A DNA stretch of 38,717 nt from Ignavibacteria bacterium (GTDB lineage: Bacteria; Bacteroidota; Ignavibacteria; UBA10030), in the NCBI GenBank assembly GCA_016873805.1, contig VGVZ01000008.1:66592-105308 (forward strand). Direction: 5' to 3'. Positions 31,087 through 35,167 of the stretch are shown here, one piece after another (within the stretch, counting starts at the first letter, position 1; each line of letters opens with the position of its first letter). Made by a program: the position numbers and the translations under genes. Below the pieces are notes generated by a model, which was not told the origin of the DNA, did no database searches, and was given only the letters and a program-made list of their open reading frames with translations.

Positions 31087-31608
31087 ATGAAAGGATTGAT
31101 GGTTGGTTGCGCACTGCTCTTGATGAGCTGTGGGAGCGGAGAGATCTCTCCGGAGGACCTTGCTCAACAGGAGCTTGAGATCAAGGCTGTCGTCTACGGT
31201 CTCCATGCGTCGCTTGATCATGCATACTCGACGCAAACGGTGGACACGGATAGTCTGATTGAGCACTATTATGCGCCCGACACGTACTACGTCACCCCCT
31301 GGGGGAATACCGAGCCCTTGGATTCCACGAAGTGGCGAATCCGCACAACGAAGAGTCGGATCAAAGAGTATCAGTACTCGATTGAGAACCTGCGAGTGCG
31401 CACGTTCAATTCGGGGGGATACGCGTTCTTTATCCTTCGCCAGGCGTACGCGATCGACGGATACATGCTTGATGAGTATCTGCCGACCACCTTCATCCTG
31501 GAGAGACGGGAGGAGGGATGGCGGATCATACACATCCAGCGCACGACCGACTATCAGACCATTCAACAGTACGTCGAGATCCAACGACGGCGGGAGGAGG
31601 ACCGATAG
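31087..31608 (+). CDS. NTF2/SnoaL-like lipoprotein
   Basis: The 173-residue product has a lipoprotein signal (LMVGCALLLMSC, Cys15). A single NTF2-like alpha+beta fold follows: ELEIKAVVYGLHASLDHAYSTQTVDTDSLIEHYYAPDT, then beta strands ending RREEGWRIIHIQRT. This fold occurs in SnoaL and DUF4440 proteins, which range from enzymes to binding proteins. No catalytic set can be identified. No strong ribosome site is visible. Function is unknown. Confidence 0.75.
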   Translation: MKGLMVGCALLLMSCGSGEISPEDLAQQELEIKAVVYGLHASLDHAYSTQTVDTDSLIEHYYAPDTYYVTPWGNTEPLDSTKWRIRTTKSRIKEYQYSIENLRVRTFNSGGYAFFILRQAYAIDGYMLDEYLPTTFILERREEGWRIIHIQRTTDYQTIQQYVEIQRRREEDR

Positions 31609-31784: not shown

Positions 31785-32150
31785 ATGTATGCGATCGGCT
31801 TTCGATTCCTGGTCGCCGCTCTCCTGCTCGTCGCTGCCGGTTGCTCGGCAAATAAACTCACGACTGAGATGCGACAGAAGCTCGATCCACCACTGATCCG
31901 ACTTCTCGAAGGCCATGCGGTCGACGATGCAGACTATGAACAGTCTGCGCGTCCTGACGGAGCAAAAGAATACGCCGTCATCATACGAGGAACGAACCCG
32001 GAGGAAGTCCGGGCTGCCGGAATCCATCTGAACTCGATCTTTGGGGAAGTGATGACCGCACGCCTCACGACGGTGGAGCTCCTGAAAGTACTTCGACTTC
32101 CGTCGATCAAGTCTGTTCGGGCAGGCGACAAACCCCGCTCCCTCCAATAA
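31785..32150 (+). CDS. Stand-alone subtilase-propeptide-like lipoprotein
   Basis: This 121-residue product has a lipoprotein signal (VAALLLVAAGC, Cys20) followed by a region that aligns with residues 24-125 of the subtilase encoded downstream. Shared pieces are R-x-KL-P-x-I-x-LxE near the start and RAAGIHLNSIFGEVMTARLT matching RAAGVHTNSDFGRFVTARVA. This region in the subtilase is the N-terminal propeptide, which folds and inhibits the protease. The start at 31785 has GAGG 8 nt upstream; the longer frame is rejected. It may be a membrane-tethered inhibitor or chaperone of the protease. Homology is seen; the role is inferred. Confidence 0.75.
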   Translation: MYAIGFRFLVAALLLVAAGCSANKLTTEMRQKLDPPLIRLLEGHAVDDADYEQSARPDGAKEYAVIIRGTNPEEVRAAGIHLNSIFGEVMTARLTTVELLKVLRLPSIKSVRAGDKPRSLQ

Positions 32151-32168
32151 GATGATATTCTTGTCTAA

Positions 32169-32344
32169 CAGGTTGTTGAAAAAGTATTTTTCTGTCATTC
32201 TGAAGGAGCCCTGCCTGCCGCAGTGTACTACTACACGCAGGCAGGGAAGCGACTGAAGAATCTCGCTTTATGAGTCAGATTCTTCATCCCGCTAATAAAC
32301 AGCGGGATTCAGAATGACATTGGACCTCGTTTTTCAACACCCTG
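32169..32344. repeat. MITE-like palindromic element with terminal inverted repeats
   Basis: The 176-bp element starts CAGGTTGTTGAAAAA and ends with the inverse of CAGGGTGTTGAAAAA (one mismatch in 15). It also contains GTCATTCTGA / TCAGAATGAC arms, an inner CCTGCCTGC / GCAGGCAGG stem and ATCCCGCT / AGCGGGAT. CTAA flanks both ends (32165-32168 and 32345-32348), a likely 4-bp target duplication. It codes for nothing and lies between the propeptide lipoprotein and the subtilase. Confidence 0.65.
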
Positions 32345-32389
32345 CTAATTCAATCTTCAACCGTTAACCATTAAGGATAGGCGAAGACC

Positions 32390-35167
32390 ATGAATCGTCG
32401 ATCGATTGTCGCCAGGGCTCTCGTCGTTCTGCTGTTCGTGGTGCAAGTTGTCGCGGCACAGGTGCTTCGGGATTCCGATCGTGCCAAGCTTCACCCCCGG
32501 TTCATTGAACTCGTCGAGAGCGTCCGCCCTCAAAAGGGTGTTGACGCCGCTCAGATGACTGATCTCATCCAGAGCTCCGACGAGCAGGGGAACCAGTTCT
32601 TTGATGCTATCATTCACACCCTTGACGCGCGTGCGATTCGAGCCGCTGGAGTCCACACCAACTCCGATTTTGGTCGCTTTGTTACCGCGCGTGTGGCGCC
32701 GGATCAGCTGGTATCCCTCGTTGGACTCCGCGAGGTGACCTACATCGACCCGGGGAGTATCAACACGATCCAGGCGGATGTGAGCGTACCGGAAACCGGA
32801 GCGCCGCTTCTTCACTCTGGTTTTCTGAAAAACACGAAGTACACCGGCAAGGGAGTGATCGTGTTGATTTATGATACCGGAATCGACTTCTTCCACGGCG
32901 ATTTTCGCGACCCCAACGATCTAAACAAGAGTCGGATCCTTGCGATCTGGGATCAGACCCTCACACCAATCTCGGGAGAGCGAAATCCCACAGGCCTCAA
33001 CTACGGTGTAGAGTACACGAAGGCGGAGATCGATGATGAGATCGATGGGACCCCAACGGGAGTGGTTCGCCAGCGAGACATAAGTGGTCACGGAACGCAT
33101 GTTGCCGGAACCGCGGCAGGGAACGGAAAGGCGGTCAGCGGGAAGTACGTCGGCATGGCCCCGGAGGCAGACATTATCGTTGTGAAGGGGGGAGACGGCT
33201 CCTTCAGTGAATCGAGGATGATTGATGGACTAACCTATGCACAGCAGAAGGCGGTGCAGTTCGGAAAACCGCTAGTGCTGAACTGGAGTATTGGAGGTCA
33301 ACATGGTCCTCACGATGGCACAAGAGACTATGAGTTCGCGGTGGATCAGTTTGTCAATACGCCGGGGAGAATCGTTTGCATCTCGGCTGGAAACGATGGG
33401 GCCAGCAACATTCACATCGACGGGACCGTGTCGACGGGTAGTTCCACAACGATTACTTTCACCGTTCCAACCTATACGGCCACAAGCGGGACAAATAATG
33501 ATCGGTTCACGCTGGATCTCTGGTTCAATACTCCCGTCAATGCAGTGATAGCCACACTCACGTCGCCGGGCGGGATCGTTGCGACACGGACAGCGGGTCA
33601 GACTGGTTCCGAGGCGGATAACACTGACGGGACGATTACGGTCGATAACTATCTCAACAACTCCGGTCTCCGGGGTGTCTGGGTGGATGTTCGGGATGCT
33701 GACGCAACCAGACCTCCGAAGACGGGCACATGGACGCTTGTTCTTTCCGGTATTTCCGCTACAACGACATATGACGGCTGGATGAGTCGAACGACGGTTG
33801 GAACAACTAGCGTCACGGTCTCCGGCGGGAATACGAACAAGACGGTCAGCAGTCCCGGCACCTCAAATAACGCGATCACCGTAGGATCATATGTAACGAA
33901 GTGGACTTGGTATAACAATCTGGGATCGGGATACACGTATTCCAACACAGTCGACAGGTCGAGCAACATATCGGACTTCAGTGCGAAGGGACCAACTCGG
34001 GATGGTCGCTTGAAGCCGGAGATTTCAGCCCCAGGCCAAGGCATCACCGCAGCGCTCTCGAAAGACATGAACCCGCCGGTGTCCTCGACCCGGATTCATC
34101 TGGGAGACAAACACTATCTGACCCAGGGAACGAGCATGGCTTCTCCCCATGTGGCGGGAGGGGTCGCGCTGCTGCTTCAGGCAAGTCCAACGCTGCAAGC
34201 TCAAGCGATCAAGGACTTGCTCACTTCGCGGGCCCGGAAGGATGCCTTCACGGGGACTTCGAGCAACAACACCTGGGGCCACGGAAAAATGGATATCCTG
34301 AACTCCATGGCGGCGAATCTTCAGTCCAATCTCACCGTCTCTCGCGATCTGCTGGCGTACGATGTGACGAGCACCAGCGCGATCATCACGATGAGCGGCG
34401 CAATGAAACTGGCTGTCCGTTTCACGCCGACGATATCGGGTCAAGTCACGGGGGCACTCGTGATGCCGACCACTCCCGTCAACAATCCGATCCAGGGATT
34501 GGGACCCTTGGTCTGTGAAGTGTACACAAACGTTTCAGGGAGCATCGGCGGTATCCCGGGAACCAGAATCGGTGCGGCCGTGCAACACCCGTTCAGTCAG
34601 ATGTCGTCGGCGCTGTACAACTACGTCGACATGACTCCGGCGGGCGTCAACGTCAACGCGGGGACAGAATATCACCTCGTGATGTCACCTACGAACCCCA
34701 CCGACACGTTGAAAATGCGCGCGGACGACGGGAGCGTTCCTACTGATCGCTCGTCGCGATTCGATGGAACCTGGTTGAATTTCAGCGATCCGGCGTCCGG
34801 GATCACCGCGGGGCGGAACCTCCGCTTGAGGGTTGTGGTATCGTCATTGTCGACGCCGCTGAATGTTACGGCGGTCGACGGAATGCCGGCGACGTTCGAG
34901 CTGTTTGACAATTACCCCAATCCGTTCAATCCATCGACCACGATCAGGTATTCGATTCCCTCGCAGTCATTGGTGAAATTGAAGGTGTTTGATTTGCTGG
35001 GGAAGGAAATCGTCACACTTGTGAACGAGCCGCAAAACGCCGGAACGTATCAGGTGGAATGGAACGGGCGGGATATGATGGGATCGGCTGTTTCGAGTGG
35101 AGTGTACTTCTACCGGCTGGAAGGAAGCGGCTTTGCTGCCTCGAAGAAGCTTGTGTTGCTCAAGTAG
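32390..35167 (+). CDS. Subtilisin-like serine protease with type IX secretion signal
   Basis: The 925-residue product has a signal peptide, an N-terminal propeptide (about 24-125) and an S8 peptidase domain. Asp162 (VLIYDTGIDF), His234 (SGHGTHVAG) and Ser582 (GTSMASPHVAGG) form the catalytic triad; a long insertion of about 200 residues precedes the Ser. A fibronectin/PKD-like beta region follows. The last 85 residues are a type IX sorting domain with FELFDNYPNPFNPSTTIRYS and the final strand KKLVLLK. It is therefore exported through T9SS and anchored or released at the surface. AAGGA lies upstream of the ATG. The propeptide has a separate lipoprotein homologue upstream. Confidence 0.95.
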   Translation: MNRRSIVARALVVLLFVVQVVAAQVLRDSDRAKLHPRFIELVESVRPQKGVDAAQMTDLIQSSDEQGNQFFDAIIHTLDARAIRAAGVHTNSDFGRFVTARVAPDQLVSLVGLREVTYIDPGSINTIQADVSVPETGAPLLHSGFLKNTKYTGKGVIVLIYDTGIDFFHGDFRDPNDLNKSRILAIWDQTLTPISGERNPTGLNYGVEYTKAEIDDEIDGTPTGVVRQRDISGHGTHVAGTAAGNGKAVSGKYVGMAPEADIIVVKGGDGSFSESRMIDGLTYAQQKAVQFGKPLVLNWSIGGQHGPHDGTRDYEFAVDQFVNTPGRIVCISAGNDGASNIHIDGTVSTGSSTTITFTVPTYTATSGTNNDRFTLDLWFNTPVNAVIATLTSPGGIVATRTAGQTGSEADNTDGTITVDNYLNNSGLRGVWVDVRDADATRPPKTGTWTLVLSGISATTTYDGWMSRTTVGTTSVTVSGGNTNKTVSSPGTSNNAITVGSYVTKWTWYNNLGSGYTYSNTVDRSSNISDFSAKGPTRDGRLKPEISAPGQGITAALSKDMNPPVSSTRIHLGDKHYLTQGTSMASPHVAGGVALLLQASPTLQAQAIKDLLTSRARKDAFTGTSSNNTWGHGKMDILNSMAANLQSNLTVSRDLLAYDVTSTSAIITMSGAMKLAVRFTPTISGQVTGALVMPTTPVNNPIQGLGPLVCEVYTNVSGSIGGIPGTRIGAAVQHPFSQMSSALYNYVDMTPAGVNVNAGTEYHLVMSPTNPTDTLKMRADDGSVPTDRSSRFDGTWLNFSDPASGITAGRNLRLRVVVSSLSTPLNVTAVDGMPATFELFDNYPNPFNPSTTIRYSIPSQSLVKLKVFDLLGKEIVTLVNEPQNAGTYQVEWNGRDMMGSAVSSGVYFYRLEGSGFAASKKLVLLK

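Follow-up and report, generated by a model that had tools for sequence, protein, structure and literature searches.

Why should a bacterium encode a small lipoprotein that resembles a subtilase propeptide beside a subtilase that still carries a propeptide of its own? This question is raised by a 38,717-nt stretch of DNA from an Ignavibacteria bacterium (assembly GCA_016873805.1, contig VGVZ01000008.1, positions 66,592 to 105,308, forward strand), hereafter the window. It holds a free-standing propeptide-like lipoprotein gene (31785..32150 including the stop codon, + strand, 121 residues), recognized by its open reading frame, its translation and its homology to the propeptide of the neighbour. 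The neighbour, 239 nt downstream, is a gene for a 925-residue subtilase (family S8; 32390..35167, + strand) of the kind exported by the type IX secretion system (T9SS). Computation shows that the lipoprotein shares ancestry and predicted fold with this propeptide. From sequence and model evidence we give a probability of roughly 0.6 to the reading that it acts as a tethered, dedicated, propeptide-like inhibitor of the adjacent subtilase, holding the folded enzyme latent until T9SS export.

The initial annotation had aligned the lipoprotein with the propeptide part of the subtilase, and both BLASTP and profile evidence bear this out. In BLASTP, residues 30-114 of the lipoprotein align with residues 31-122 of the subtilase at 34% identity (47 bits, E 3e-11 for this single comparison). 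A search of the whole genome with the lipoprotein returned itself and the adjacent subtilase only (second match E 9.1e-8), and a profile of 18 lipoproteins matched one of 10 subtilase N-termini with a probability of 99.7 and an E value of 7.1e-26, again for a single comparison. Chance similarity, a doubt that the initial annotation had itself raised, is ruled out by the last two results. The homologous N-terminal segment also upholds the claim that the subtilase keeps its own propeptide, which we place at about residues 24-129 (32459..32776, + strand) from a predicted signal peptide end and a predicted boundary before D130. The Pfam family Inhibitor_I9 was matched neither by the 18 lipoproteins (E <= 1) nor by the 10 subtilase N-termini, and the lipoprotein is therefore not filed in that family. 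Weak matches to CspB_prodomain (PF18425) were found at E <= 1 for 4 of the 18 lipoproteins (best E 2.1e-4) and 5 of the 10 subtilase N-termini (best E 0.0054); the window's own lipoprotein and subtilase N-terminus had none at that threshold. As a single sequence, the lipoprotein gave zero matches in a Pfam and NCBIfam scan, sequence searches of the PDB with the single protein and with the profile gave chance-level matches only, and no relatives were found in the viral contigs searched.

Structure prediction leads in the same direction. The single-chain AlphaFold2 model of the lipoprotein, built on the alignment of 18 (mean predicted local distance difference test, pLDDT, 84.0; predicted template modelling score, pTM, 0.75), has the element order strand-helix-strand-strand-helix-strand. 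Every one of the best 12 Foldseek matches is a subtilase propeptide or a subtilase with its propeptide, and the best 36 matches from VIA-align are all subtilase prodomains, proenzymes or the I9 inhibitor POIA1, the top one at Z 8.0 with a root-mean-square deviation of 2.6 over 74 aligned residues. The predicted fold is thus that of a subtilase propeptide (I9-type). Since a Z of 8 counts as moderate and many proteins share the ferredoxin-like arrangement, the fold supports the sequence result and cannot replace it. The subtilase model was poor (pLDDT 63.6) and was set aside; its propeptide part has the same element order.

The initial annotation had proposed a cognate pair and had made this depend on the two genes being neighbours in related genomes, which they are. 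Our samples comprised 32 genomes of the window's family, 98 of its order, 391 of its class and 395 of its phylum, the last two overlapping. Short copy and subtilase stand side by side in 10 of the 32 family genomes and in 28 of the 98 order genomes (10 of them in family f1, 10 in f5, 8 in f6). Of the f6 copies, four came from reading upstream of a protease match and four from the later class search. The class sample has the pair in 35 of 391 genomes (36 pairs) and adds families f9, f14, f18 and f24. Profile matches occur in 23 of the 395 phylum genomes and the pair in 14, with f50 and f53 adding eight pairs in seven genomes. The total is 44 pairs, spread over 42 genomes and nine families; the two genes are always on the same strand, and in 42 pairs the lipoprotein gene is the upstream one. 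In the other two, that of G196 (locus L092) and one of the two pairs of G123 (L094), the free-standing copy follows directly 3' of the protease. Presence is patchy, as the majority of sampled genomes have no match. Flanking genes vary among families and the pair remains together; from inspection by eye we take a flanking gene to be uvrA-like in 8 of 10 f5 cases and secA-like in f6. The named relatives with copies are Ignavibacteriae and Bacteroidetes metagenome-assembled genomes, together with contigs filed as KSB1, Calditrichota and, doubtfully, Williamsia. The Williamsia-filed contig (L141) carries a Bacteroidota-like lipoprotein and subtilase pair and is probably mis-binned.

These counts include four flawed pairs: G006 and G597, in which the lipoprotein frame is broken, G022, whose lipoprotein lies at a contig end, and G119, whose partner runs off the contig and can be read only in its propeptide-like start. 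They leave out G240 (136 residues, without a lipobox or an adjoining subtilase), G145 (truncated at a contig edge, the next gene being no subtilase), G013 (a broken copy near a contig edge) and G372. In G372, a 78-residue propeptide-like protein without a signal peptide (L101:2280-2516) is encoded 20 nt downstream of a subtilase that apparently also lacks one; this is possibly a cytosolic version of the pair. Two other loci hold subtilases of the same group, apparently with a lipobox of their own (L110:2933-5146 and L111:2616-4829), and in G004 a tandem of two related T9SS-type subtilases follows one free-standing propeptide lipoprotein (L115:2426-8323).

Could the short gene be merely what is left of a tandemly duplicated subtilase gene, truncated and functionless? 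Its homology and adjacency to a propeptide would fit, as would a premature stop codon in G006, a frame shift in G597 and the degraded copy near a contig edge in G013. We rejected this reading on conservation, on the ratio of nonsynonymous to synonymous substitution (dN/dS) and on the lipobox. The gene is spread over nine families, its frame is open in 42 of 44 copies (that of G022 being cut by the contig end), and NG86 dN/dS is 0.08-0.25 in the 12 comparisons, out of 13, that had a usable dS (two with dS > 2.5). The lipobox cysteine is conserved and the copies end at the propeptide boundary, as described below. The gene is under purifying selection, and a relic is largely refuted and very hard to credit. 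These rates, like the tree and the residue counts that follow, come from 39 copies aligned jointly with the protease N-termini (51 propeptides): 35 of the 36 class-sample pairs (G006 being left out) and, from beyond the 44 pairs, two KSB1 copies, one Calditrichota copy and the Williamsia-filed contig. The eight f50 and f53 pairs are absent from the alignment, dN/dS, tree, acid and lipobox counts, and three pairs (G058, G063, G119) and one solo gene (G076b) have no protease row.

As a lipoprotein, the short protein was correctly called. Its signal peptide (31785..31841, + strand) ends in LLLVAAG immediately before Cys20 (codon at 31842), which gives the lipobox VAAG-C, and the mature protein would span 31842..32147 (+ strand). 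It has an open reading frame of its own with start, stop and signal peptide, and is not cut from a larger enzyme; the same holds in its relatives. A cysteine no more than 22 residues before a conserved lysine is present in 38 of the 39 copies versus 16 of 51 proteases, in which, judged by eye, it mostly lies inside the hydrophobic core (that of G284 is lipobox-like). The one copy missing from the count is that of G022, trimmed at its contig end, and its frame reads GLSC. We infer that the lipoprotein is exported and lipid-anchored.

Which way would it face? In other Bacteroidota, an acid-rich stretch after the cysteine is the rule for surface export of lipoproteins. Here, the five positions after the cysteine contain no acidic residue in 21 of 38 copies, one in 16 and two in a single copy, with the acids in G089 and L141 counted from a cysteine earlier than the likely lipobox. 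The lack of an acidic cluster suggests, weakly because the rule comes from other Bacteroidota, that the lipoprotein probably faces the periplasm. It speaks with the same reservation against a potempin-like surface lipoprotein, which would face outward and shield the envelope from the exported protease or retain the protease on the surface. The gene order and the lipoprotein nature do match the potempin/KLIKK pairs (PMC4404884, PMC7296668), yet we consider a surface role decidedly improbable.

The initial annotation was also right to call the partner a T9SS cargo. By eye, the subtilase has the motifs YDTGID, HGTHVAG and GTSMASP, and its S8 domain matches Pfam PF00082 at E 3.8e-44. Residues 842-922 (34913..35155, + strand) form a T9SS type A C-terminal sorting domain (TIGR04183, E 6.4e-11), and in the same genome SprA_N is present and tails of this type give 61 matches, which together make export by the T9SS credible. 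All 11 partner proteases scanned, 10 of them chosen by us, have T9SS tails above the cut-off. The best NCBIfam match of all 11 subtilases scanned is a germination protease of the Csp kind, below the cut-off, and germination proteases of this kind also head the PDB matches obtained with the subtilase profile.

The point at which the free-standing copies stop suggests an inhibitor. In 34 of 39, the C-terminus lies -1 to +3 residues from the pro/mature boundary of the subtilases, which was placed by alignment at the Asp of DVSVP; the window's copy likewise ends in alignment with its neighbour's boundary. The full-length prodomain of CspB blocks active-site labelling in trans, and loss of its last three residues permits labelling (PMC3567191). 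The stop position of the copies suits an inhibitor because it is these last residues of the CspB prodomain that block the active site. Elsewhere, the tail contributes to inhibition and is not essential (PMC6993865, PMC10580911).

Several observations weigh against such an inhibitor. Five of the 39 copies run 5-12 residues past the boundary (G069 +12, G078 +7, G080 +6, G061 +5, L141 +5), and the terminal residues vary widely and are unconserved. A putative helix-capping acid (D/E) is found in 39 of 51 propeptides versus 22 of the 39 free-standing copies; among the 19 f1/f5 copies just 4 have it, and the window's is one of those without it. The support from structure has its limits too: no Foldseek match has E < 0.001 and unrelated folds are interspersed from rank 13, and in VIA-align, row 36 (POIA1) equals the first unrelated row at Z 4.9. 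Finally, Chryseobacterium and Kaistella have related subtilases without a partner, solo genes of this group occur in G003, G070 and G076, and the protease frames beside the two broken lipoprotein frames are open. Assembly errors aside, the partner is therefore dispensable in some lineages. The frequent lack of the acid, the variable ends and the broken frames allow for a weaker or differently bound inhibitor and show that the subtilase does not always need its partner.

For an obligatory folding chaperone, the same three features are a greater difficulty than for a safety inhibitor. Subtilase propeptides act as chaperones, and the anchored copy could likewise be a steric chaperone in trans that aids (re)folding of the subtilase in the periplasm, any inhibition being transient at most. 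Supplied in trans, the prodomain of CspB restores folding (PMC3567191), and ORF2 of Aeromonas, a separately encoded chaperone, offers a precedent that also appears, weakly, at Foldseek rank 30 (probability 0.54). The Aeromonas protease ASP is propeptide-deficient, however, whereas the present subtilase keeps a propeptide; in some lineages the protease frame is open and the lipoprotein is broken or absent; and folding needs no lipid anchor. We regard a chaperone as unlikely, and the evidence leans towards inhibition.

How might a tethered inhibitor work? The T9SS moves folded proteins, and cells that export strong proteases by this route must therefore keep them inactive in the periplasm. Judging from the fold and the C-terminus positions, the lipoprotein would bind the catalytic domain in the manner of the cis-propeptide and place its free C-terminus in the non-primed substrate subsites. 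The cis-propeptide is cleaved and could be lost before export, and the tethered copy would then keep the folded periplasmic enzyme latent. As the T9SS moves the protease out, the lipoprotein, being anchored, would stay behind, and activity would thus be released outside. It is tempting to speculate further that the copy, tethered to the outer membrane, succeeds the cis-propeptide after autocleavage, latches the protease beside the translocon and is stripped off because it cannot follow the cargo, which would make export itself the activation step, and that we are looking at a recurrent safeguard of T9SS proteases in Bacteroidota and their neighbours that arose from the protease's propeptide, perhaps repeatedly. 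This extension is doubtful, if attractive.

The tree of the 39 copies and 51 propeptides (94 columns) is weakly supported. It places the 19 f1/f5 copies and the Calditrichota copy together in a protease-free group (bootstrap 33), the f6 copies together, those of f9, f14 and f24 together, and the two KSB1 copies together. The G147 copy falls among proteases, and the L141 copy falls beside the propeptide of its own protease.

If an inhibitor of this kind is at work, a lipid-anchored copy of a cargo's propeptide would be a simple and general answer to the risk that a protease poses in the periplasm. A C-terminus at the cleavage boundary could serve as a marker for finding similar pairs in other secreted protease families, and the pair, present in many genomes, is itself open to experiment.

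The gap between the two genes is unusually long in the window. In most pairs, the distance from stop to start is -47 to +58 nt. Besides the 239 nt of the window, larger values occur in G068 (172 nt), G006 (92 nt, after the premature stop) and G022 (127 or 58 nt, depending on the start chosen); in G088, the earliest possible start would give an overlap of 70. The gap in the window is long because it contains an inserted element, without which it would measure about 57 nt. This element (32166..32347) resembles a miniature inverted-repeat transposable element: it is 182 bp long, begins and ends with TA, and has terminal inverted repeats of 18 nt. It has 27 matches in its own genome (fragments counted separately), of which eight, the window copy included, span 167 or more of the 193 query bases with an identity of at least 87%. 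Scanning the gap region for promoters and terminators yielded no signal above chance. Upstream of the pair lies a second small lipoprotein-like gene of 173 residues (31087-31608), whose product is presumably NTF2-like; judged by eye, a homologue of it also precedes the pair in G015, G027, G028 and G030.

How do these findings compare with known systems? The gene order is shared by the KLIKK proteases of Tannerella forsythia, and here the initial annotation, which knew of no described lipoprotein pair with a T9SS cargo, has to be amended. A gene for a small predicted lipoprotein precedes each of the six KLIKK protease genes (PMC4404884), and these proteins, later named potempins, are described as specific inhibitors of the downstream protease, on data then unpublished (PMC7296668). 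Shared with our locus is a small lipoprotein gene directly upstream of a T9SS protease gene, as in 42 of our 44 pairs. The six Tannerella genes show no significant similarity to one another (PMC4404884), whereas the present copies form one family that can be traced to the cognate propeptide. Propeptide homology goes unmentioned in the available parts of both accounts (PMC4404884, PMC7296668), and it is by this description that the potempins are set apart from our family; no potempin is named among the PDB rows listed by sequence or by fold, and potempin sequences themselves were not compared.

The initial annotation had rightly pointed to separate propeptide-like inhibitors from fungi and plants, and propeptide-like proteins that stand alone are also found in Plasmodium, Toxoplasma and Aeromonas (PMC6993865, PMC5638518). 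A mushroom, yeast, a plant and apicomplexans all have such separate inhibitors, those of the last including Plasmodium SUB1-ProM and Toxoplasma MIC5 (PMC6993865). Like the MEROPS I9 type (POIA1, yeast IB2, Arabidopsis SPI-1), MIC5 and SUB1-ProM, the lipoprotein is a small separate protein with a (predicted) propeptide fold, and the gene for SUB1-ProM also adjoins subtilisin-like genes and its product is closest to the propeptide of its own target (PMC6993865). All of these inhibitors are eukaryotic, and the available text does not mention lipid anchoring (PMC6993865). The present protein, in contrast, is bacterial and lipid-anchored by prediction; its gene directly adjoins that of one T9SS protease, and its sequence is clearly homologous to a propeptide that the protease retains.

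Two bacterial cases are also related. ORF2 of Aeromonas sobria, the separately encoded chaperone of ASP, has its C-terminal residues at the catalytic site and inhibits the protease with a half-maximal inhibitory concentration (IC50) of 84.3 nM (PMC5638518). It resembles our lipoprotein in being bacterial, separately encoded and a neighbour of a subtilisin-like protease, and it acts as both chaperone and temporary inhibitor (PMC5638518). The difference is that ASP has no propeptide and orf2 lies just downstream of asp (PMC5638518), whereas here the propeptide is retained and the partner appears to be lipid-anchored and is mostly encoded upstream. In CspB of Clostridium, the prodomain remains bound, acts in trans and blocks the active site with its last residues (PMC3567191). 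Among named relatives of our subtilases, the Csp proteases score best, and CspB_prodomain is the only propeptide family matched, weakly, by several of the lipoproteins. The CspB prodomain nevertheless belongs to the protease precursor and is no separate lipoprotein, and Csp proteases act in spore germination.

Other pairs share the logic and differ in the enzyme. Spi of Streptococcus pyogenes is a propeptide analogue encoded beside its protease, SpeB, and Bfi1B and Bfi4 of Bacteroides fragilis are predicted lipoprotein inhibitors beside proteases (PMC2873492). Their partners are C10 cysteine proteases, however, and the Bfi proteins are staphostatin-like, with no significant identity to propeptides (PMC2873492). 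Gingipain propeptides produced separately inhibit their enzymes (PMC3677877), and Myxococcus PopD binds the subtilisin-like PopC and blocks its secretion, any likeness to a propeptide being unmentioned in the available part of that account (PMC6434023).

Searches of one open-access library listed no description of lipoproteins that form a family and are homologous to the propeptide which an adjacent T9SS subtilase retains. Lipoprotein inhibitors encoded before T9SS proteases were already known; the novelty lies in a family of lipoproteins that reproduce the very propeptide still carried by their partner. On the present sequence comparisons, stand-alone inhibitors of the subtilase-propeptide type, best described so far in eukaryotes, would extend to a family of bacterial lipoproteins.

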